Part shown: one piece after another, positions 4,645 through 54,736 of the stretch
Layout of the letters: every line of letters starts with the position of its first letter
Position numbering within the stretch: position 1 is the first letter of the stretch
DNA from: Collimonas fungivorans
GTDB taxonomy: Bacteria > Pseudomonadota > Gammaproteobacteria > Burkholderiales > Burkholderiaceae_D
Assembly (NCBI RefSeq): GCF_001584145.1
Contig: NZ_CP013232.1
Coordinates: forward strand, 1,736,001-1,800,000
DNA: 64,000 bases
Direction of reading: 5' to 3'
Made by a program: the position numbers and the translations under genes
Notes under the pieces: generated by a model
Databases searched by the model: none
The model's input: only the letters and a program-made list of their open reading frames with translations
What the model was told of the DNA's origin: nothing

Positions 4645-8703
<4,059 letters not shown>

Positions 8704-8722
8704 TCCTACTGAAGATCGCGCC

Positions 8723-9259
8723 ATGACCGTTCGTGAAATCCTGAAAATGGGCGATCCGCGCCTGCTGCGGCAAGCCGAGCCGGTCACTGCCTTTGGCACG
8801 TCGGAACTGGAGGCGCTGATCGCCGACATGTTCGATACCATGTATGCGGCCAACGGCGCCGGCCTGGCGGCGCCGCAGATCGGCGTCAACCTGCAGCTGG
8901 TGATCTTCGGTTTCAAGAACAACGTGCGTTATCCCGATGCGCCGGCGGTGCCGGAAACGGTGCTGATCAACCCGGTATTGCGGCCGCTTTCCGACGAAAC
9001 CGAAGACGGCTGGGAAGGCTGCCTGTCGGTGCCCGGCCTGCGCGGCGTGGTGCCGCGCTGGACCAGCCTGCATTACGAAGGCTTCGACCAGACCGGCGCA
9101 GCCATCAGCCGCGACGTCGACGGTTTTCATGCACGTGTTGTGCAACATGAAACCGATCATCTGAATGGCATCCTGTATCCGATGCGTATCAAGGATTTCA
9201 CCCGCTTCGGTTTTACCGAAGTGCTGTTCCCCGAGCTGGATCCCAGCCACGACGACTGA
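8723..9259 (+). CDS. def: peptide deformylase
   Basis: Removes the formyl group from the N-terminal methionine of new proteins. All three family motifs are intact: [10 protein letters not shown] (about 45-54), EGCLSVPG (Cys100) and QHETDHLNG (His142, Glu143, His146), which bind the catalytic metal. 178 residues is normal. There is no fmt gene beside it; many betaproteobacteria carry more than one deformylase, so this may not be the only copy. The 175 bp after it contain short GC hairpins and the promoter region of the antiporter gene. Confidence 0.96.
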
Positions 9260-9349
9260 TTTGCGGTTTTCCGGCGTTGGCCGGACTGCAATCCCTATTT
9301 CATTCGGCCGTTGAGAGGTTGAATGCCATGCCGGTTGTCGCCGGCAATA

Positions 9350-43460: not shown

Positions 43461-46031
43461 TTAAACTTCCGCGATACGCTTGGCGATATGCGCCAGCGCT
43501 TCTTCGACCTGGTCGACCAGGATCAGGCAAAGATCTCCCGGCGCCAGGTGCGACAAGGCGGTATCGATGGCGACGAATTCGCCGTTGATTTCCTCGGTCG
43601 ACGTGGTGCGGCGGGCGTTTTGCAAACCTTCGCGCAACAGACCGAGCACCTCGCCGTCGGCGCGGCCGCGCTGGCACTGGTCCTGGTACAGGATCACCTG
43701 GTCGAAAGCATCGCCCAGGATTTCGGTCTGGTGGCGGATATCGATATCGCGCCGGTCGCCGGCGCCGCTGATGACGACCGAGCGGCGTTTGGCTGGCATG
43801 CTGTCGATGGCCTTGACCAGCGCCTGGATCGCATCCGGGTTGTGGCCGTAGTCGGCGATCAGGGTCGCGCCGCGGTAATCGAATACATTGAAGCGGCCTG
43901 GCGCCGTGGCGGCATCGTTGACGAAGGTGCTGAGGCCGGCGCGGATCACTTCCCAGTCCAGGTCCAGCGCCCAGGCTGCGGCAATCGACGCCATGGCGTT
44001 TTCGATCTGGAAGCCGATGGCGCCGTTGCGCGTCAGCGGAATGTCTTGCAGCAAAATCCGATGTTCCTGCTTGCCCTTGGCGGCGACGATGGCGTTGCCG
44101 TCCTGGTACACCACCCGGTGGCCTTGCGCACGATGGGTAGTCATCAGCGGGTGATGGAAATCGTGGGCGAAAAAGGTGACCGAGCCGGTGCAGGATTTGG
44201 CCATGCTGGCGACCATCGGGTCGGCCGCGTTGAGGACGGCGTGGCCGCCGGGCGCGACGTTTTCCACGATCACGCGTTTTACCACGCTCAGGTCTTCCAC
44301 CGTGCTGATATAACTCAGCCCGAGGTGGTCGCCCATGCCGATGTTGGTGACCACGGCGACATCGCAGCGATCGAAGCCAAGGCCCTCGCGCAAGATGCCG
44401 CCGCGCGCGGTTTCAAACACGGCGGCGTCGACGTCGGGATGCATCAGGACATTGCGGGCGCTGCGCGGACCGCTGCAGTCACCGGTATCGATGCGTTGCT
44501 GTTCGATGTAGACGCCGTCGGAATTGGTCATGCCGACGCGCAGTCCCTTGCGCCCCAGCAGGTGGGCGATCAGGCGCACGGTAGTGGTCTTGCCGTTGGT
44601 GCCGGCCACCGCTACCAGCGGGATGCGGCCGTTGTCGCCGCTGGCGAACATGGTCGACATGATGGCGGCGCCGACCGCACGGCCCTTGCCGTAGGAAGGG
44701 CTGATGTGCATGCGCAAGCCAGGCGCGGCGTTGACTTCGACTACGCCGCCTTCCTGTTCTTCCAGCGGCTGGTGGACATTGTTGCAGACCACGTCGACGC
44801 CGCAGATATCGAGTCCCACCATTTGCGCCGCGGCGACGGCGCGCGCCGCCAGCTCCGGATGGACGTCTTCGGTGACGTCGGTGGCGGTGCCGCCGGTGCT
44901 CAGGTTGGCGTTGTTGCGCAGGACTACGCGCACGCCTTGCTGCGGAATCGAATCCGCGGCGTAATTCTGTTTCGCCAGGGTGGCCAGGGCGATCGCATCA
45001 AAGCGGATCTTGGTCAGCGAAGTGGCATGGCCATCGCCGCGCAGCGGGTCGCTGTTGACCTGGTCTACCAGCTGGCTGATGGTGCGCACACCGTCGCCGA
45101 TGACTTGCGGCGGATCGCGGCGGGCAGCGGCGATCAGCTGGTTGCCAACCACCAGCAGGCGGAAGTCATGCCCCGGCAGGTAGCGTTCGACAATCACTTC
45201 CGAGCAGATCTTGGCCGCCACTTCGAACGCAGCCATGACTTGCTCGCGAGCGGTGATATTGACCGCCACGCCTTTGCCCTGGTTGCCGTCGCGCGGCTTG
45301 AGCACCACCGGGCCTGCGATTTCCTGGGTCGCGGCCCAGGCTTCTTCCGCGCTGGACACCACCCGGCCCATAGGCACCGGAACGCCGGCGGCGTTCAGCA
45401 GCTTCTTGGTCAGGTCCTTGTCCTGCGCGATCGATTCCGCGATGGCGCTGGTATGGTTGGTTTCGGCGGCCTGGATGCGGCGCTGGCGGCTGCCCCAGCC
45501 GAACTGCACCATGCTGCCGCTGGTCAGGCGCCGGAATGGAATCCCGCGCATGACTGCGGCCTGCACGATGGAACCGGTGCTAGGCCCGAGACGGACGTCT
45601 TCATCCAGTTCCTGCAAGCTGGCCAGTGCGCCGGCCAGGTCGAACGGCTGGTCGTCCAGCGCTGCCTGGCACAGTTGCTGCGCCAGCTGGAACGCCAGCC
45701 GGCCGACTTCTTCTTCGGTATATTCAACGATGACCTGGTAGACGCCGCCTTCCAGCGTCGGCACCGTGCGGCTGAAGGTGACCGGGCAACCGGATTCCGA
45801 CTGCAGTCCGAGCGCTGCTATCTCCAGCGCATGCGCCATCGACACCACTTCGTTCTTGCTGCCGGCCTCCAAAAAGCCGATTTTTGGAAAGCGTTCACGC
45901 AGCCTGGCTTCGAAACCGGCGATGCCCGCAATGGCGCGCTCGACATCGGGACAAGACACAATGGCTTCGATAGCGGTATGTCGACTCCACAGATTGGGGC
46001 CGCGAAGTACTCGGATACGTGATACGTCCAT
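43461..46031 (-). CDS. cphA: cyanophycin synthetase CphA
   Basis: Polymerises aspartate and arginine into multi-L-arginyl-poly-aspartate (cyanophycin), a nitrogen reserve granule. It has an N-terminal domain (about 1-160), an ATP-grasp domain (about 215-470; VVLKPRDGNQGKGVAVNI, GVDVVCNNVH and VVEVNAAPGLRMH) and a Mur-ligase-like domain with P-loop VAVAGTNGKTTTVRL. The C-terminal lobe contains APGRFNVFDYRGATLIADYGHNPDAI. 856 residues matches the family. The ATG at 46031 is preferred over the TTG one codon upstream. It is downstream of the shorter paralogue on the same strand, with a terminator-like hairpin between them. Confidence 0.95.
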   Translation of the reverse strand: MDVSRIRVLRGPNLWSRHTAIEAIVSCPDVERAIAGIAGFEARLRERFPKIGFLEAGSKNEVVSMAHALEIAALGLQSESGCPVTFSRTVPTLEGGVYQVIVEYTEEEVGRLAFQLAQQLCQAALDDQPFDLAGALASLQELDEDVRLGPSTGSIVQAAVMRGIPFRRLTSGSMVQFGWGSRQRRIQAAETNHTSAIAESIAQDKDLTKKLLNAAGVPVPMGRVVSSAEEAWAATQEIAGPVVLKPRDGNQGKGVAVNITAREQVMAAFEVAAKICSEVIVERYLPGHDFRLLVVGNQLIAAARRDPPQVIGDGVRTISQLVDQVNSDPLRGDGHATSLTKIRFDAIALATLAKQNYAADSIPQQGVRVVLRNNANLSTGGTATDVTEDVHPELAARAVAAAQMVGLDICGVDVVCNNVHQPLEEQEGGVVEVNAAPGLRMHISPSYGKGRAVGAAIMSTMFASGDNGRIPLVAVAGTNGKTTTVRLIAHLLGRKGLRVGMTNSDGVYIEQQRIDTGDCSGPRSARNVLMHPDVDAAVFETARGGILREGLGFDRCDVAVVTNIGMGDHLGLSYISTVEDLSVVKRVIVENVAPGGHAVLNAADPMVASMAKSCTGSVTFFAHDFHHPLMTTHRAQGHRVVYQDGNAIVAAKGKQEHRILLQDIPLTRNGAIGFQIENAMASIAAAWALDLDWEVIRAGLSTFVNDAATAPGRFNVFDYRGATLIADYGHNPDAIQALVKAIDSMPAKRRSVVISGAGDRRDIDIRHQTEILGDAFDQVILYQDQCQRGRADGEVLGLLREGLQNARRTTSTEEINGEFVAIDTALSHLAPGDLCLILVDQVEEALAHIAKRIAEV

Positions 46032-46048
46032 CAACAGGTTTTCCTAAT

Positions 46049-46068
46049 ATTACCAATAATTACCAATA
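46049..46068. repeat. 10-bp tandem direct repeat in front of cphA
   Basis: Two adjacent perfect copies of ATTACCAATA, lying between the hairpin that ends the paralogue and the cphA ribosome site (AGGAAAA on the minus strand). It could be part of a promoter or regulator site for independent cphA transcription. Confidence 0.7.
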
Positions 46069-46100
46069 AAAAAGCAGGATCGGCAGCAGCCGTCCTGCTT
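46067..46100 (-). terminator. terminator-like hairpin between the two cyanophycin synthetase genes
   Basis: On the minus strand, AAGCAGGA and TCCTGCTT form an 8-bp stem around 13 bases, followed by a T-run. It starts 7 bp after the paralogue's stop and 75 bp before the cphA start, so it should reduce read-through into cphA. Confidence 0.75.
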
Positions 46101-46106
46101 AGCTTT

Positions 46107-48263
46107 TTAAGCCATTTCGAAGGTCTCTATCCCTGCACGGATCAGATCGTGAGAGATGTCCAGCGCCCATGCCGCTGCTACTGCCGCCAGCACGTTTTCC
46201 ACCTGGAAGCTGTCCTTGCTGCGGGCAATCAGCGGCACGGTGGCGATGTCGGCCAGCAGCATTTCATTCTTGCCGACCGCCAGCATGATCTGGTCGTTGC
46301 GGACAAACACCGCACGCTTGTCTTGCTCCAGCTGTTCGGCGATCACCGGCAGGGTAGGGGAGAGGCCAAAGAAGATCACTTCACCATCGCACAGCGACGC
46401 CATGCCCGCTACCAGCGGATCGGCGGCATTCAGCACGGCGACGCCGCTAGGCAGCACGACATCGACCTGGGTGCGGGTGACCTTGACCATTTCCTCGGCA
46501 TCGCTGATGTAGTACTGCGGCGAACTGTCGCCGGCGGCGATATTGGTGACGACGCCGACCTGGCAGCGGTCGTAGACCAGGCCTTCCGACAGGATAGTGT
46601 CGTGGCTGTTTTCGAACACCGCTGCTTCGACCGCACGATTGATCAGCACCCGTTGCGCCGATTCCCAATTGGCGCGGTCGCCCTTTTCGACTTGGCGCTG
46701 GGCGAAATACAGGCCGTCGCCGCAAGCCAAGCCGACATGGTTGCCGCTCAGGTGCAACTGCCAGGCTATCAGGCGCGAGACCGTGGTCTTGCCGTGGGTG
46801 CCGGTGACGCCGACGATAGGGATGCGGCCATTGTTGGCAGCGGCAAACAAGTGTTCGATGATGGCGCGGCCAACCGGGCGCGGCCGGCCTTCGGCCGGTT
46901 TCAGGTGCATCAGCAGGCCGGGGCCGGCATTGACTTCGACAATCGCGCCGCGCTGTTCTTCCAGCGGCCGGGAAATGTCTTCGGCCACCAGGTCGACGCC
47001 GGCGATATCCAGGCCCACCACGCGTGCGGCGAGCGAGGCCGCGGCGGCGACGCTGGGGTGGACCAGGTCGGTAACGTCGATGGAAACGTTGCCGTTGCGC
47101 TGGATCAGCACTTGTTTGCCTGCGGGTGGGATCGATTCGCCGTTGAAGCCTTGCCGTTCCAGCTCTACCCGCACCACCGGTTCATCGTCCAGCAGCACCA
47201 GGCTGAGCGGACATTCTTCCAGTTCGCCGCGGCGCGGGTCGGAATTGATCTGGCTGTCGATCAGCTGGCGGATGGTCGACTTGCCGTCGCCGCTGATGGA
47301 CAGCGGCTCGCCGCGCGCAGCTGCCGCCAGGCGGCCGCCGACGATCAGCAGCCGGTGTTCGTTGCCGCGGATGAAACGCTCGACGATCACGCTGCTGCCT
47401 TCTTGCAGCGCCAGCGTGTAGGCGGTTTCGATCTCGGCCTGGGTATTGAGGTCGATGAAGACGCCGCGGCCATGGTTCGCATCGGAAGGCTTGACCACCA
47501 CCGGCAAGCCGATGTCTTCCGCCGCTTCCCAGGCCTCAGCGGCGCTTTCCACCAGTTGTCCTTCTGGCACCGGCACGCCGCAAGCCTGCAGCAGGCTCTT
47601 GGTCAGGTCCTTGTCGCTGGAGATGCTTTCGGCGATGGCGCTGGTCTGGTCGGTTTCCGCGGTCCAGATGCGGCGCTGGCGGATGCCGTGGCCGAGTTGC
47701 ACCAGGTTGCCTTCGGTCAGGCGGAATGAGGGGATACGTCGTTCGTCTGCTGCTTCCACGATGCAGGCCGTGCTTGGCCCCAGGCAGCGCGAATCGACCA
47801 TGCTGCGCAGTTCGGTGATAGTGGCGGGGACGTCGAACGGCTTGTCTTCAATCGCAGCCATGACCAGGTCGCGTGCAGCGTGCAGGGCGGCGCGGGTGAC
47901 CTGTTCGTGGCGCGCGCGCACCGCAACCTTGTAGACGCCGCGCACCGAAGTGCTGCGCGCCTTGCCGAAACCGCCGGGCATGCCGGCCAGGTTTTGCAGT
48001 TCCAGGGTGACGTGTTCGAGGATGTGGCCGGGCCAGGTGCCGTCTTGCAGGCGCTGGACAAAACCGCCGCGTTCGCCGTAGCTGCAGCGATGTTCGATCA
48101 GGGTAGGCAGCCAGCTGGTCAGGCGCTGGTTGAACCCGGGCAAGGTATTTGAAGGGAAATCTTCCAGTTCGCCAATGTCGATCCACGCCTCAAGGGTTGA
48201 GCGGTAGGTCCAGATATTTGGACCGCGTAGCGACATGATGCGGAGAATTTCAATGTTTTTCAT
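46107..48263 (-). CDS. CphA-like cyanophycin synthetase paralogue lacking the C-terminal ligase lobe
   Basis: A 718-residue homologue of CphA. The N-terminal domain, the ATP-grasp domain (VVVKPSDANHGRGVFIDL, GVDLVAEDIS, IVEVNAGPGLLMH) and the Mur-ligase P-loop (GVTGTHGKTTVSRL) are all present. The chain ends at ALDISHDLIRAGIETFEMA, so the whole Mur-ligase C-terminal lobe (which in cphA includes YGHNPDAI) is missing. The stop is followed at once by a proper terminator, so this looks like an evolved short form rather than a recent truncation. Paired cphA genes occur in many betaproteobacteria, and cyanobacterial CphA2 is also short and uses the beta-Asp-Arg dipeptide; whether this protein does so is inference. 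Confidence 0.88.
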   Translation of the reverse strand: MKNIEILRIMSLRGPNIWTYRSTLEAWIDIGELEDFPSNTLPGFNQRLTSWLPTLIEHRCSYGERGGFVQRLQDGTWPGHILEHVTLELQNLAGMPGGFGKARSTSVRGVYKVAVRARHEQVTRAALHAARDLVMAAIEDKPFDVPATITELRSMVDSRCLGPSTACIVEAADERRIPSFRLTEGNLVQLGHGIRQRRIWTAETDQTSAIAESISSDKDLTKSLLQACGVPVPEGQLVESAAEAWEAAEDIGLPVVVKPSDANHGRGVFIDLNTQAEIETAYTLALQEGSSVIVERFIRGNEHRLLIVGGRLAAAARGEPLSISGDGKSTIRQLIDSQINSDPRRGELEECPLSLVLLDDEPVVRVELERQGFNGESIPPAGKQVLIQRNGNVSIDVTDLVHPSVAAAASLAARVVGLDIAGVDLVAEDISRPLEEQRGAIVEVNAGPGLLMHLKPAEGRPRPVGRAIIEHLFAAANNGRIPIVGVTGTHGKTTVSRLIAWQLHLSGNHVGLACGDGLYFAQRQVEKGDRANWESAQRVLINRAVEAAVFENSHDTILSEGLVYDRCQVGVVTNIAAGDSSPQYYISDAEEMVKVTRTQVDVVLPSGVAVLNAADPLVAGMASLCDGEVIFFGLSPTLPVIAEQLEQDKRAVFVRNDQIMLAVGKNEMLLADIATVPLIARSKDSFQVENVLAAVAAAWALDISHDLIRAGIETFEMA

Positions 48264-48285
48264 GAGTGAGCAATGAGGCTGTGCG

Positions 48286-48318
48286 ATAGGGCTGCAATAG
48301 GGCTGCAATAGGGCTACG
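48286..48318. repeat. 11-bp tandem repeat (about 3 copies) in the cphA-paralogue leader
   Basis: Two exact copies of ATAGGGCTGCA (48286-48296, 48297-48307) and a third with ATAGGGCTACG (48308-48318), ending 22 bp from the paralogue's ATG. Eleven bases is close to one helical turn, so it may be an iterated protein site or a slippage-prone leader. Confidence 0.85.
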
Positions 48319-48568
48319 TGAGTGCTGAAAATTTTTCTTGTTTTATGTCGGTTCAACACCCTGCAACTATCTGTAACGCGCTAATACGTGAATCGGTTTA
48401 CAGAAGCTCACTTAAAATAGCAAAATGATAGGGTTATGGTAACGAAATGTAACGTTTCTGAAAAACACGATAGGATATAATACTTGCGGCAGACGATGTG
48501 CGCCATTTGAGGCGATTTCACACAAAATTCAATCCGGTCCGTGCCTGCGGACACACCATGCCGTTTAG
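48319..48568. other. divergent promoter region between the cphA paralogue and the ABC operon
   Basis: AT-rich non-coding DNA. A perfect TATAAT at 48476-48481, facing right, is a good -10 candidate for the ABC/DUF1854 operon, with an expected start about 80 bp before its ATG, but there is no strong -35 match. No clear promoter for the leftward cph genes could be singled out. Confidence 0.5.
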
Positions 48569-50881
48569 ATGAAAAGCAACCCCTTATCCCCTGTGCCTAC
48601 CTCCAGTAATTATTTATCCCATATCCTGTCTGCCGATTTGCGTGCCGAAGTGACAACACTGCTGGCCCCGGCCGAAGAGGTATTGGCGTCGCTGCAGGTC
48701 GATCTTAACGCTTCGCTGCATTTCGCGCGCGGCACGGTGCTGCTTACCAATCGCCGCGTGCTGGCCAAGATGGAACAGGACAGCAGCTGGCGCGAATGGG
48801 CTTACCGGCCGGGTCTGAGCCTGAGCCACCATGACCATGCCGGCGTCGGCAGCCTGGAGCTGTTCGACGAGCAGCGGCAACTGGCCTGCTGGCGCTACAC
48901 GCTCGGCCTCAACCTGGAAGCGCTGCGCCTGATCAAGGTTTTCGAGCAGCAGCGCGACGATTACCTGGCCGGGCGTTCAGCAGCGCGCCAGGAGCAGGCG
49001 CTTTGCCCGCAGTGCCAGGCGCCGTTGCCGCCGGGTAGCGATGAATGCCTGATCTGTCCGGAAAAAGGCGAAGCGCCATCCTCGACCTGGGCTCTGTTCC
49101 GGCTGGCGCGTTTCGCCACGCCCTACAAGGGCATGCTGCTGCTGGGCTTCATCCTGATGCTGATCTCGACTGCCGCTACCCTGGTGCCGCCTTACCTGAT
49201 GGGCCCCTTGATGGATAACGTGCTGATTCCTTATCAGAACGGCAAGCCGATCAATTACGACCTGGTCAAGCTCTACCTGTCCGGATTGCTGGCTTCCGCC
49301 CTGGTGGCATGGAGCCTGGGCTGGGCCCGCACCTATATCCTGGCGCTGGTCAGCGAGCGTATCGGCGCCAACCTGCGCACTACTACCTATGAACACCTGC
49401 TGCGCCTGTCGCAGGAATATTTCGGCGGCAAGCGCACCGGCGACCTGATGGCGCGCATCGGTTCCGAAAGCGACCGTATCTGCGTGTTCCTGTCCCTGCA
49501 CCTGCTGGATTTCGCGATCGACGTGCTGATGATCGTCATGACCGCGGTGATCCTGTTCTCGATCAATCCCTGGCTGGCGCTGGTGACCCTGGTGCCGCTG
49601 CCGTTCATCGCCTGGATGATCCACCTGGTGCGCGACCGGCTGAAGCACGGCTTTGAAAAGATCGACCGCATCTGGGCCGAAGTGACCAACGTCCTTGCCG
49701 ACACCATCCCGGGGATCCGCGTGGTCAAGGCGTTTGCCCAGGAAAAGCGCGAAGCCACGCGTTTCCGTGACGCCAACCAGCACAACCTGCTGGTCAACGA
49801 CCGCGTCAACAAGATCTGGTCGCTGTTCTCGCCGACGGTCACCTTGCTGACCGAAGTCGGATTGCTGGTGGTCTGGGTGTTCGGCATCTGGCAGGTCTCG
49901 AAAAACGAAATCACGGTCGGTGTGCTGGCCTCGTTCCTGGCTTACATCAGCCGCTTCTATACCCGCCTCGATTCGATGAGCCGTATCGTCTCGGTGACGC
50001 AAAAAGCCGCAGTCGGCGCCAAGCGCATTTTCGAAATCCTGGATCACGTATCGAGCGTGCCGGAACCGGCCAACCCGGTGCACCTGGAGCATGTGAAAGG
50101 CGCCATCGAGTTGCGCAACATCGGTTTCCGCTACGGCAACCGGGCGGTGATGCGCGACGTTAACCTGACCATTGCGCCGGGCGAGATGATCGGCCTGGTG
50201 GGCCATAGCGGCTCCGGCAAGAGCACGCTGGTTAACCTGATCTGCCGTTTCTACGATGTGTCGGAAGGATCGATACGGATCGATGGCGTCGATATCCGTT
50301 CCATGCCGATCTCGGAATACCGCCGCAATATCGGCCTGGTGCTGCAAGAGCCGTTCCTGTTCTTCGGCACCATTGCAGAGAATATCTGCTACGGCAAACC
50401 GGAAGCCACGCGCGAAGAAATCGTCGCCGCCGCGCGCGCCGCCCATGCCCATGAGTTCATCCTGCGCCTGCCGCAAGGCTATGATTCGCTGGTCGGAGAA
50501 CGCGGCCAGGCGCTGTCCGGCGGCGAGCGCCAGCGTATTTCGATCGCACGCGCCTTGCTGATCGATCCGCGCATCCTGATCATGGATGAGGCTACTTCCT
50601 CGGTCGACACCACTACCGAAAAAGAAATCCAGAAAGCGCTCGACAACCTGGTGCAAGGCCGCACCACGATTGCGATTGCGCACCGCTTGTCGACCTTGCG
50701 CAAGGCGGACCGACTGGTGGTGCTGGACCGCGGCCAGATTGTCGAAGTCGGCAGCCATGACGAACTGATGCTGCGCGAGGGCGCTTACTACCGCCTGTAC
50801 CAGGCGCAGCTGCGCAATGCCGATACCGAGCCGACCCTGGTCGATGAAGATAGCGAAGACAGTGACGAGAGGGCTGCATGA
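48569..50881 (+). CDS. cyanophycin-locus ABC transporter (exporter-type half transporter with N-terminal zinc ribbon)
   Basis: A 770-residue fused permease-ATPase. Residues about 25-130 form a soluble domain whose GTVLLTNRRVLAKM stretch looks PH-like. A zinc ribbon follows (CPQC at 146-149, CLIC at 160-163). A six-helix exporter membrane domain (about 185-470) comes next, then a nucleotide-binding domain with Walker A GLVGHSGSGKST, signature LSGGERQRISIARAL, Walker B ILIMDEATSSVD and the H-loop IAHRLST. Exporter-type half transporters normally dimerise. The ATGA overlap with the DUF1854 gene and the location beside two cphA genes tie it to cyanophycin metabolism. The substrate is unknown. Confidence 0.88.
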   Translation: MKSNPLSPVPTSSNYLSHILSADLRAEVTTLLAPAEEVLASLQVDLNASLHFARGTVLLTNRRVLAKMEQDSSWREWAYRPGLSLSHHDHAGVGSLELFDEQRQLACWRYTLGLNLEALRLIKVFEQQRDDYLAGRSAARQEQALCPQCQAPLPPGSDECLICPEKGEAPSSTWALFRLARFATPYKGMLLLGFILMLISTAATLVPPYLMGPLMDNVLIPYQNGKPINYDLVKLYLSGLLASALVAWSLGWARTYILALVSERIGANLRTTTYEHLLRLSQEYFGGKRTGDLMARIGSESDRICVFLSLHLLDFAIDVLMIVMTAVILFSINPWLALVTLVPLPFIAWMIHLVRDRLKHGFEKIDRIWAEVTNVLADTIPGIRVVKAFAQEKREATRFRDANQHNLLVNDRVNKIWSLFSPTVTLLTEVGLLVVWVFGIWQVSKNEITVGVLASFLAYISRFYTRLDSMSRIVSVTQKAAVGAKRIFEILDHVSSVPEPANPVHLEHVKGAIELRNIGFRYGNRAVMRDVNLTIAPGEMIGLVGHSGSGKSTLVNLICRFYDVSEGSIRIDGVDIRSMPISEYRRNIGLVLQEPFLFFGTIAENICYGKPEATREEIVAAARAAHAHEFILRLPQGYDSLVGERGQALSGGERQRISIARALLIDPRILIMDEATSSVDTTTEKEIQKALDNLVQGRTTIAIAHRLSTLRKADRLVVLDRGQIVEVGSHDELMLREGAYYRLYQAQLRNADTEPTLVDEDSEDSDERAA

Positions 50882-51348
50882 CAATCCACGATTTCAAACT
50901 CAGCCGCAACGCCTTCGGCCGCCTGGTGTACACCGCCGCCGGCGGCGAAGTGCATGAAGGCGTGGTGCCGGTGCGCGCTTTTCCCATCGGCGCGCCGGAC
51001 GACGGCATTTCACTGGTAAACGGCGACGGCCAGGAGCTGGCCTGGATTTCGCGCCTGAGCGATTTGCCCGGCGAAACCCGGACGATGGTTGAAAAAGAAC
51101 TGGCGAGCCGCGAATTCATGCCGGAAATCCGCCGCATCCAGCGGGTTTCCAGTTTCACCGCACCCAGCACCTGGTACGTCGAGACCAATCGCGGCGATGC
51201 TTCTTTCACGCTCAAGGGCGAGGAAGATATCCGGCGTATCGTGGCGACCAGCCTGCTGATTGCGGACAGCCACGGCGTACAGTTCCTGATCCGCGATACC
51301 CAGGCGTTGGACAAGGCCAGCCGCAAGATACTGGATCGTTTCTTGTAA
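50878..51348 (+). CDS. DUF1854 protein of the cyanophycin locus
   Basis: A 156-residue soluble protein without signal peptide or membrane helix. Typical DUF1854 stretches are GRLVYTAAGGEVHEGVVPVRAFPI (in parts: GRLVYTAAGG, HEGVVPVRAFPI), ELAWISRLSDLP and REFMPEIRRIQRVSSFTAPSTWYV. The middle (ADSHGVQFLIRDTQALD) is also family-like. Its start overlaps the ABC transporter stop (ATGA), so the two are translated together and probably act together. DUF1854 proteins recur next to this transporter and cphA in betaproteobacteria as I recall; the biochemical role is unknown. Confidence 0.85.
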   Translation: MTIHDFKLSRNAFGRLVYTAAGGEVHEGVVPVRAFPIGAPDDGISLVNGDGQELAWISRLSDLPGETRTMVEKELASREFMPEIRRIQRVSSFTAPSTWYVETNRGDASFTLKGEEDIRRIVATSLLIADSHGVQFLIRDTQALDKASRKILDRFL

Positions 51349-52156: not shown

Positions 52157-54709
52157 TCAGATATGCAGCGCATCCAGCAGGTCGGTTTCCAGCTGGATCT
52201 GCAGGCGTGCATGGTTGAGCGCATTGCCGTCGACCAGGAACACGTCTTCGACCCGTTCGCCGAGCGTCATGATCTTGGCGGTGTGCAGATTGATCTTGTG
52301 CTTGGCCAGCACGCTGGCGACGGAGAACAGCAGGCCGGTGCGGTCGTTGGCGGTGATCGACAGCAGGTAGTACTGGCCGCGCTCGTCGGGACGCAGGTCG
52401 ACCGTCGGTGTTACCGGGAAGGTGCGCGACAGGCGCGACAGTCGTCCCTTGGACGGCGCCGGCAGGGGACTGTCGGTTTGCAGCAACAGCGTCAGTTCAT
52501 GCTCGATCAGGTTGATGATGTCGCGATAGTGCTTGGCAAATAGCGGCGCGCTGATCAGGAAAGAGTCGAGCGCGTAGCCGTGCCGGGTAGTCTGGATCTT
52601 GGCGTCCAGGATGCTGAAATTCTTGCTGTCGAAATAGCTGCAGATGCGGATGAACAGATCGTTCCGGTCCTTGGTGTAGACCGCCACCTGCAGACCTTCG
52701 CCGATCGGCGCCAGGCGGCATTTGACGATCGGGCTCGGGCTATCAGTCTGGTTGTAGAAGGAACGGGTTTGCCAGGCGATGTCGGACGAGTCGTGGCGCA
52801 GGAAATAGGCGACGTCGAGCTGGCGCCACAGGGTTTCGTGGGCGTCTTCCGCCAGGCCGTACAGGCGCAGGGTTTTCAGCGCTTCTTCCTGGCGGTTTTT
52901 CAGCTCGCGGTCAGCCGACGGCGTTTCACCGCCGAGCACACGCAAGGTCATGCGGTACAGATCTTCCAGCAACTTGCCTTTCCAGGCATTCCATACCTTG
53001 GGACTGGTGCCGCGTATGTCGGCCACGGTCAGCAGGTAGAGCGCGGTCAGGTGCCGTTCGTCCTTGACCGTATTGGCAAAATTGAGGATCACTTCGGGAT
53101 CCGACAGGTCCTGTTTTTGCGCCACTTGCGACATGGTCAGGTGATGCTCAACCAGGAACACCACCAGCGCGGTGTCCGCCGCCGGCAAGCCGTGCTGCTG
53201 GCAGAAGTGCAGGGCGTCGGTCATGCCCAGCTTGGAGTGGTCGCCGCCGCGGCCCTTGGCGATGTCGTGGAACAGGGCGGCGACGTACAGCAGCCAGGAA
53301 CGCGGGAAATTGGCGATCAGCTGGCTGCAGAACGGATATTCATGGGCATGTTCGCTCATCGTGAAGCGGCGCACATTGCGCACCACCATCAGGATGTGCT
53401 GGTCAACGGTGTAGACATGGAACAGGTCGTGCTGCATCTGGCCGACGATGCGCCGGAAGTTCGGCAGATAGCGGCCCAGGATGCTGGTCTGGTTCATGCC
53501 GCGCAGCGCGTGGGTGATGCCTTGCGGCGCCTGGATGATCTGGATGAACAGCGAGCGGTTATGCGGATCGCGGCGGAAGCTGTTGTCGATCTTGACGCGG
53601 GCGTGCCACAAGGCGCGCCGGGTGCGTGCGGTCATGTCCTTCAGTTCGCTGTGCTGGGCCAGCAGCAGGAACAGCTCCAGCATGGCTGACGGCGTGGTCT
53701 TGAACAGGTCGTCGTGGGCGATATCGATCAGGCGGTTCAGATGGTTGAAGCGGTCGTTGATACGTTGCGGCACCATCGGCTGCGGGAACAGTTGCACTTC
53801 GATGTTCTGCAGCAGGATGGTGTTGAGCTGGGTCACCGCCTTGGCGGCCCAGTAATAACGCTGCATCAGGTATTCGCTGGCGCGCCGGGTTTCCGTGGTC
53901 TGGAAGCCGAGCGCTTCGGCAATCGGCGTCTGGACATCGAATACCAGCCGGTCTTCGCGGCGGTTAGTGTAGATGTGCAGGCGGATCCGGATATCCTTGA
54001 AAGCGCGCTCCTGGCGCGACAGCTGGCGCGCTTCGGCGGCCGTGATCAGGCCGCGCTGGGCCAGTTTGGGCCAGGATTCGCCGAGCCCGGCTGCCTTCGC
54101 CACCCACAGGATCACTTGCAGGTCGCGCAAGCCGCCCGGGCTCTCCTTGCAGTTCGGTTCCAGGCTGTACGGCGTATCTTCGTATTTGACGTGGCGCTGG
54201 CGCATTTCCAGGATTTTCCCCTGGAAAAAGGCGCAGGCGTCCATGGCGCCATTGCAGCGTTCCTGCAATTGCACGAACAGCGGATGGCTGCCGCTCACCA
54301 GCCGCGCTTCCAGCAGGCTGGTCTGGACTGTGATGTCGGCGGCGGATTCGCTCAGGCACTCGTCAACCGTGCGGATGCTGTGGCCGATTTCCAGGCCGAT
54401 ATCCCAGAACAGCTGCACCAGCTGTTCCAGCCGGGATTTCAATTCGGCGTCCGGACTGGCTTCCAGCAGGATCAGGACATCAACGTCGGAATGCGGGAAC
54501 AGCTCGCCGCGGCCGTAACCGCCGACCGCCACCAGTGCTGCGCTGGACGGCAGTTCCAGCATTTTCCAGGCTTGCGTCAGGGCGATGTCGACACTGCGCC
54601 GCAGCGCCGTCAGCAGTTCGCCGGGTTTACCGTCCGCCAGGAAGGCAGAGATGATGGTTTGCCGCTCGCTTCTAAGCTGTTGTTTGAGTGTGGCGGCAAG
54701 GGTCGTCAT
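52157..54709 (-). CDS. glnD: bifunctional PII uridylyltransferase/uridylyl-removing enzyme GlnD
   Basis: Nitrogen sensor that uridylylates PII proteins when glutamine is low and deuridylylates them when it is high. The nucleotidyltransferase motif is [16 protein letters not shown] (about 63-78). A central HD domain carries [12 protein letters not shown], and two ACT domains that sense glutamine lie in the last about 190 residues. 850 residues from ATG 54709 is standard; a TTG nine codons upstream is less likely. It is 27 bp downstream of map and co-transcribed with it. Its presence near the cyanophycin genes is notable, since both relate to nitrogen status. Confidence 0.96.
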
Positions 54710-54736
54710 GTAGGCGCGGGTCGAGATACAGCTCAA

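Follow-up and report, generated by a model that had tools for sequence, protein, structure and literature searches.

The subject of this report is a cyanophycin locus of four genes in the soil bacterium Collimonas fungivorans, at positions 43461 to 51348 of a 64,000-nucleotide stretch of contig NZ_CP013232.1 (positions 1,736,001 to 1,800,000 of the forward strand). We refer to this whole stretch as the window. Two paralogues of cyanophycin synthetase (CphA), the enzyme that makes this nitrogen polymer, are encoded on one strand; we call them CphA1 and CphA1'. An ATP-binding cassette (ABC) half-transporter and a small DUF1854 protein are encoded on the other. The original prediction had placed four genes here, and open reading frames and family scans agree on all of them and on their coordinates. 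The features are as follows.

43461..46031, minus strand: CphA1 (NF010623, 1257.2 bits; likely ATG at 46031, stop at 43461; residues assigned by alignment)
45279..45281, minus strand: codon for Gln252 of CphA1, at the position of His267 in SuCphA1 and TeCphA1 (by alignment)
46107..48263, minus strand: CphA1', a shortened CphA paralogue (NF010623, 1098.5 bits; likely ATG at 48263, stop at 46107)
48012..48086, minus strand: N-domain endo-cyanophycinase motif Cx19HxxEH of CphA1', Cys58 to His82 (motif as given in PMC9262961)
48264..48568, no strand: divergent intergenic region between CphA1' and the ABC gene, with weak promoter-like matches only
48569..50881, plus strand: exporter-type ABC half-transporter with an N-terminal extension (NF052233, 1446.6 bits against a curated cut-off of 880; PF00664, 151.5 bits; PF00005, 119.6 bits)
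48632..48979, plus strand: predicted PH-like domain of the ABC protein, residues 22-137 (structural match)
49004..49057, plus strand: four-cysteine ribbon of the ABC protein, Cys146 to Cys163 (kept in 37 of 46 proteins; Pfam zinc-ribbon matches below threshold)
50878..51348, plus strand: DUF1854 protein (PF08909, 181 bits against a cut-off of 26.8; NF052234, 237.1 bits against 150; its start overlaps the ABC stop)

The two gene pairs diverge over about 305 bp. A divergent promoter region had been proposed between them: the divergent arrangement holds, but a promoter is not established, the region containing only two weak sigma-70-like matches (0.8 expected), on opposite strands. The ABC stop codon and the DUF1854 start codon overlap in an ATGA. 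Frames of the two genes overlap in 28 of 43 loci (with start codons chosen automatically), which suggests that they are translationally coupled.

The genes of this locus are inherited together. We surveyed 130 genomes of the same order, from 51 families, calling CphA present from about 440 bits upwards (every one of the 130 gives weaker Mur-ligase matches) and the ABC protein at an E-value of 1e-150 or better (45 genomes, 44 of them over the family cut-off). CphA1' was found in 45 genomes, the ABC protein in 45 and DUF1854 in 44; DUF1854 is missing from a single carrier, G267, whose contig breaks off within the ABC gene. CphA1' and the ABC protein coincide in 45 of 45 carriers, neither is found without the other, and the other 85 genomes have neither. 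The carriers are spread over 24 families. Eleven families are mixed, so the genes have been gained or lost together repeatedly. Gene order is not fixed: all four genes run in one direction and in a different order in G209 and G256, while the ABC-DUF1854 pair lies apart from the synthetases in G260 (about 13 kb) and G182 (about 8 kb).

A second set comprised the best 80 of 574 loci in named genomes, found with a CphA1' alignment, so that CphA1' is present by construction. It includes Herbaspirillum, Cupriavidus, Ralstonia, Achromobacter, Pandoraea, Accumulibacter, Rhodocyclus and Thiobacillus. All four genes are present in 70 of these loci. Eight of the ten incomplete ones stop at a contig end (L130, L137, L147, L151, L159, L162, L183 and L187), with part of the ABC gene visible in L151 and L183, and L160 is likened to G260, with its distant pair. 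The association between CphA1' and the ABC protein is not chance. The original prediction had named a lack of co-occurrence beyond close relatives as one outcome that would speak against it, and the search instead found co-occurrence across families.

What this type of locus lacks is an adjacent cyanophycinase. None adjoins the ABC-type locus in any of the 45 carriers, the window's genome has no TIGR02069 match, and the G189 enzyme as a BLAST query gave no match in the 80 named loci and their flanks as far as fetched. Among the 130 genomes, TIGR02069 exceeds its cut-off in nine (one of which, G270, has no CphA) and matches below it in 11 more. Four genomes have CphA without the ABC protein (G189, G232, G272 and G258), and each of them has a cphA-like gene with a cyanophycinase (233-251 bits) next to it; in G232 this cphA-like gene is a Mur-ligase-type stretch on a different contig from the full cphA. 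The rarity seen here agrees with the report of Sharon and Schmeing (2023; PMC10206079), in which only 2.8% of 903 betaproteobacterial CphA1 genomes had a recognizable cyanophycinase. These authors called the rarity unanticipated and suggested that unknown cyanophycinases exist.

Both synthetases match NF010623, as foreseen, but the second is a shortened and differently specialised paralogue. With reference residues taken from PMC9262961 and PMC9427784, the N-domain motif Cx19HxxEH is intact in every CphA1' (45 of 45 in the order and 80 of 80 in the named loci) and absent from every CphA1 (0 of 43 and 0 of 78, the window's included). The motif has been reported in 83% of CphA1 at 70% redundancy (PMC9262961) and is thus not strictly required. 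The SuCphA1 N domain is a slow endo-cyanophycinase that yields four-unit fragments, not dipeptides, and in isolation it supplies primers in trans to TmCphA1 in vitro (PMC9262961).

In CphA1 the M site is retained: the P-loop Lys, Asp585 and His586 are kept in 43 of 43 and 78 of 78 proteins, and the M domain of the window's CphA1 is complete, with P-loop, Asp585, His586 and lid. The window's CphA1' is without Mur_ligase_C, the lid and His586. A complete M set, that is, P-loop Lys and Thr, Asp585, His586 and two lid residues in untrimmed sequences, is present in only two of 45 CphA1' proteins from the order (G176 and G243) and in 23 of 80 from the named loci, among them Cupriavidus, Ralstonia, Achromobacter, Bordetella and Pandoraea; the remaining proteins lack part of it. 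Trimmed alignments had suggested that the M site was lost from every CphA1', which these proteins rule out, and M loss is therefore not part of the module as such. The full-length CphA1' proteins with M residues in L118, L128 and L131 (Cupriavidus, Ralstonia and Achromobacter) may be an intermediate or a re-specialised form.

The G domains are of two kinds. CphA1' keeps His267 and Arg309 in 45 of 45 proteins and has lost the large-loop residues after Asn394 in all 45 (Asn394 itself aligns in 40). Its Arg458, a residue described as recognizing the Asp substrate (PMC9262961/PMC9427784), is replaced by Leu in 42 of 45 and 77 of 80. CphA1 keeps Arg309, Asn394 and Arg458 in all sequences and carries Gln at position 267 (41 of 43 and 78 of 78, the window's included). 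The solved CphA1 enzymes 7wac, 7lg5, 7lgm and 7lgn have His there, and H267A served as an inactivating mutation in SuCphA1 (PMC9262961). We considered and rejected a dead CphA1 G domain: its other G residues are kept in 43 of 43 proteins and G is its best conserved domain (0.714), so 'altered' is the better description. Glu215 is absent from both paralogues, which carry a Glu at position 214 (43 of 43 CphA1, 44 of 45 CphA1'), so that chain recognition may differ from that of the classic enzymes.

Judged by these residues, the two synthetases are specialised differently. Classic CphA1 enzymes (SuCphA1, TeCphA1, 7lgm, 7lgn) share their domain order with the window's proteins, their M site with CphA1, and His267 and the N motif with CphA1'. 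They have three sites, whereas neither synthetase of the window has the full set. Cyanobacterial CphA2, like the window's CphA1', is without a complete M domain, but it has no N motif according to PMC9262961, while CphA1' keeps it in 45 of 45. We found no description of such a specialised pair in the literature searched, subscription papers being mostly outside that search.

Conservation across the 45 CphA1' proteins is uneven (median identity 0.443 for M, 0.646 for N and 0.669 for G). A relaxed M domain in most lineages would fit a CphA1' that is a decaying duplicate, carried in a block that is mobile or inherited and whose genes are not tightly coupled in function. The surroundings of the block vary, the GlnD gene accompanying it in 11 of the 80 named loci, as far as their flanks were fetched, and a composite transposon has been suggested for such clusters (PMC10687191). 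We regard this explanation as very improbable. In both sets (45 and 80 sequences) CphA1' shows no variation in the N motif or the catalytic G residues, G209 and G256 carry all four genes in rearranged form, and there is no transposase among the seven flanking genes scanned in the window.

The other half of the locus is a transporter with unusual parts. Walker A, signature and Walker B motifs are all intact in the window's ABC protein, which has the transmembrane and nucleotide-binding domains of MsbA/TAP/Sav1866-type exporters. Unlike these, it carries an N-terminal PH-like domain and a ribbon, and has a DUF1854 partner. A soluble domain and a zinc ribbon had been foreseen, rightly: the former is predicted to be PH-like, matching a PH fold structurally over the whole domain, and a CxxC/CxxC ribbon follows it. 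For metal sensing, another earlier suggestion, there is no positive evidence, and the ribbon cysteines are missing in nine of 46 aligned ABC proteins.

The DUF1854 protein of the window is 96% identical to a protein of C. fungivorans. It is predicted to have two halves, parts of which may weakly resemble a polo-box or PH fold. No clear Foldseek or VIA match was obtained, which does not in itself prove a new fold, and the protein has no sequence relatives in the PDB (best E-value 0.99). Its occurrence outside Pseudomonadota was reached only through one plasmid match, the relatives of that match and a Sulfolobus control. ABC-DUF1854 pairs are also present in genomes without CphA; by gene content, then, the pair is a unit separable from the cyanophycin genes. 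Two further ideas about DUF1854 were discarded. An apparent ABC-DUF1854 fusion (P0121) reads as an ABC gene whose end is frameshifted, with a normal DUF1854 start behind it. The family is also a poor candidate for the missing cyanophycinase, because it occurs in CphA-free genomes and matched no enzyme. In L103 (7935-8273, G314) a shortened DUF1854 frame stands without an ABC gene beside an NnrS gene, and NnrS also flanks the pair in G449.

The association itself has been recorded before. NCBIfam labels the two non-synthetase families 'cyanophycin metabolism-associated ABC transporter' (NF052233, CphA_assoc_ABC) and 'cyanophycin metabolism-associated DUF1854 family protein' (NF052234, CphA_assoc_prot), and the window's proteins score far over both cut-offs. 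These models name the association only, with no mechanism, fold, CphA-free occurrence or link to the absent cyanophycinase. The 'Group 1' clusters of PMC10687191 (2023) likewise have two cphA genes, an ABC gene and no cphB, as the window does, and that paper asks for cphB analogues and transport genes. The text on Group 1 names no DUF1854 gene and reports flanking insertion sequences, whereas the seven flanking genes scanned in the window include no transposase. The locus had been put forward as an incompletely described system. This stands in so far as the exporter-type ABC protein is unexplained and DUF1854 is mentioned nowhere in the 5.39 million papers whose text was searched, but the association was already in NCBIfam and PMC10687191. 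What goes beyond the earlier proposal is the pair of differently specialised synthetases, a locus type without cyanophycinase, and ABC-DUF1854 pairs without cyanophycin genes.

Our preferred reading, with a probability of roughly 0.35, is that the four genes form a module, with two specialised synthetases supplying short cyanophycin to an exporter made up of the ABC and DUF1854 proteins. Joint inheritance, the absence of an adjacent cyanophycinase, an N site in CphA1' only and two kinds of G domain can be read from the sequences themselves; the following steps are proposed. CphA1 would elongate the polymer, adding Asp through its Gln267-type G domain and Arg through its M domain, and would make no primers of its own. 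The N domain of CphA1' would cut chains or supply primers in trans. Its G domain, with the chemistry kept and the Asp site partly lost, would use a building block that is not free Asp; beta-Asp-Arg units, which cyanobacterial CphA2 joins, are one possibility. An ABC homodimer would then pump short cyanophycin or oligomers out of the cytoplasm, with the PH-like/ribbon domain and the coupled DUF1854 subunit as docking parts. Export of short cyanophycin would explain why an exporter is found in loci without cyanophycinase.

Several points weigh against this. The substrate and direction proposed for the ABC protein form the weakest step, and no outer-membrane or secretion partner turned up, although no search was aimed at one. 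Because some genomes have the ABC-DUF1854 pair but no CphA, the pair's basic function may lie outside cyanophycin. A cyanophycinase is found elsewhere in the genome in four of the 45 carriers: that of G202 (260 bits) lies about 0.1 kb from another cphA locus of that genome, one without an ABC gene, and those of G247, G214 and G169 (136-164 bits) either lie at least 180 kb off or sit on a different contig. Gln267 also occurs in the two CphAs of the ABC-less locus of G202, and CphA1' is full-length with M residues in 23 of 80 and two of 45 cases. L174 has 2.7 kb upstream of CphA1' with no detectable ABC gene, a true or apparent exception. Finally, an IaaA-family gene in the window's genome fits intracellular use of dipeptides.

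This last gene and the invariant N motif of CphA1' also favour the view that the polymer is stored and not exported. The CphA1' N domain, with IaaA for dipeptides, would then replace cyanophycinase, and the ABC-DUF1854 pair would be a membrane dock for granules or an ATP-driven regulator that moves no cyanophycin. The endo-cyanophycinase activity of the SuCphA1 N domain lends this some weight, and folds of the kind predicted for the PH-like and weakly polo-box-like parts serve in binding. An exporter-type ABC protein whose ATPase motifs are intact is normally a transporter, however. The N domain described in PMC9262961 works slowly and releases fragments of four units instead of dipeptides. 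We hold storage to be possible, at lower odds than export.

The CphA-free pairs suggest a substrate wider than the polymer, and some exporter-fold ABC proteins import. The ABC protein might thus move a small molecule (Arg, Asp, a beta-aspartyl dipeptide or another), inward or outward, and so supply or relieve the synthetases. This is unlikely in our view: amino-acid uptake is normally the task of other ABC types, the locus contains no binding protein or permease partner, and the ABC protein is strictly linked to this type of CphA, while the other type goes without it.

Returning to the export reading, a broader version would have the specialised synthetases, the PH-domain ABC protein and DUF1854 make and secrete short cyanophycin-like isopeptides, so that in many betaproteobacteria cyanophycin is exported rather than stored. 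That would explain betaproteobacteria without cyanophycinase; we think it a doubtful generalization, less probable than export from the module itself. With the usual degrading enzyme missing from this locus type, the polymer may be exported here or handled in another way. The locus offers two candidates for the betaproteobacterial cyanophycinase gap, namely the CphA1' N-domain site and a transporter that could make degradation unnecessary. DUF1854 would gain a testable role as a partner subunit of the ABC protein, and a natural split between primer-making and polymerising enzymes would be of interest for cyanophycin production.

Some minor observations remain. A glnD gene (PII uridylyltransferase) lies at 52157-54736 of the window, 0.8 kb from the locus; its product was rejected as a member of the system because only those 11 of the 80 named loci have the gene in the flanks fetched. 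In L046 (G160, 6533-9347) CphA1 is divided between two overlapping frames, cut near the G/M boundary, by a natural split or a frameshift. Four cyanophycinase-type loci (L084, L086, L087 and L088) have CphA1 plus an extra stretch that matches only the Mur-ligase part of CphA. G202 holds both locus types, L089 and L066: one with CphA1, CphA1', ABC and DUF1854, and a separate one in which two CphAs with Gln at 267 accompany the nearby cyanophycinase. These two loci form a natural pair for comparing the locus types.

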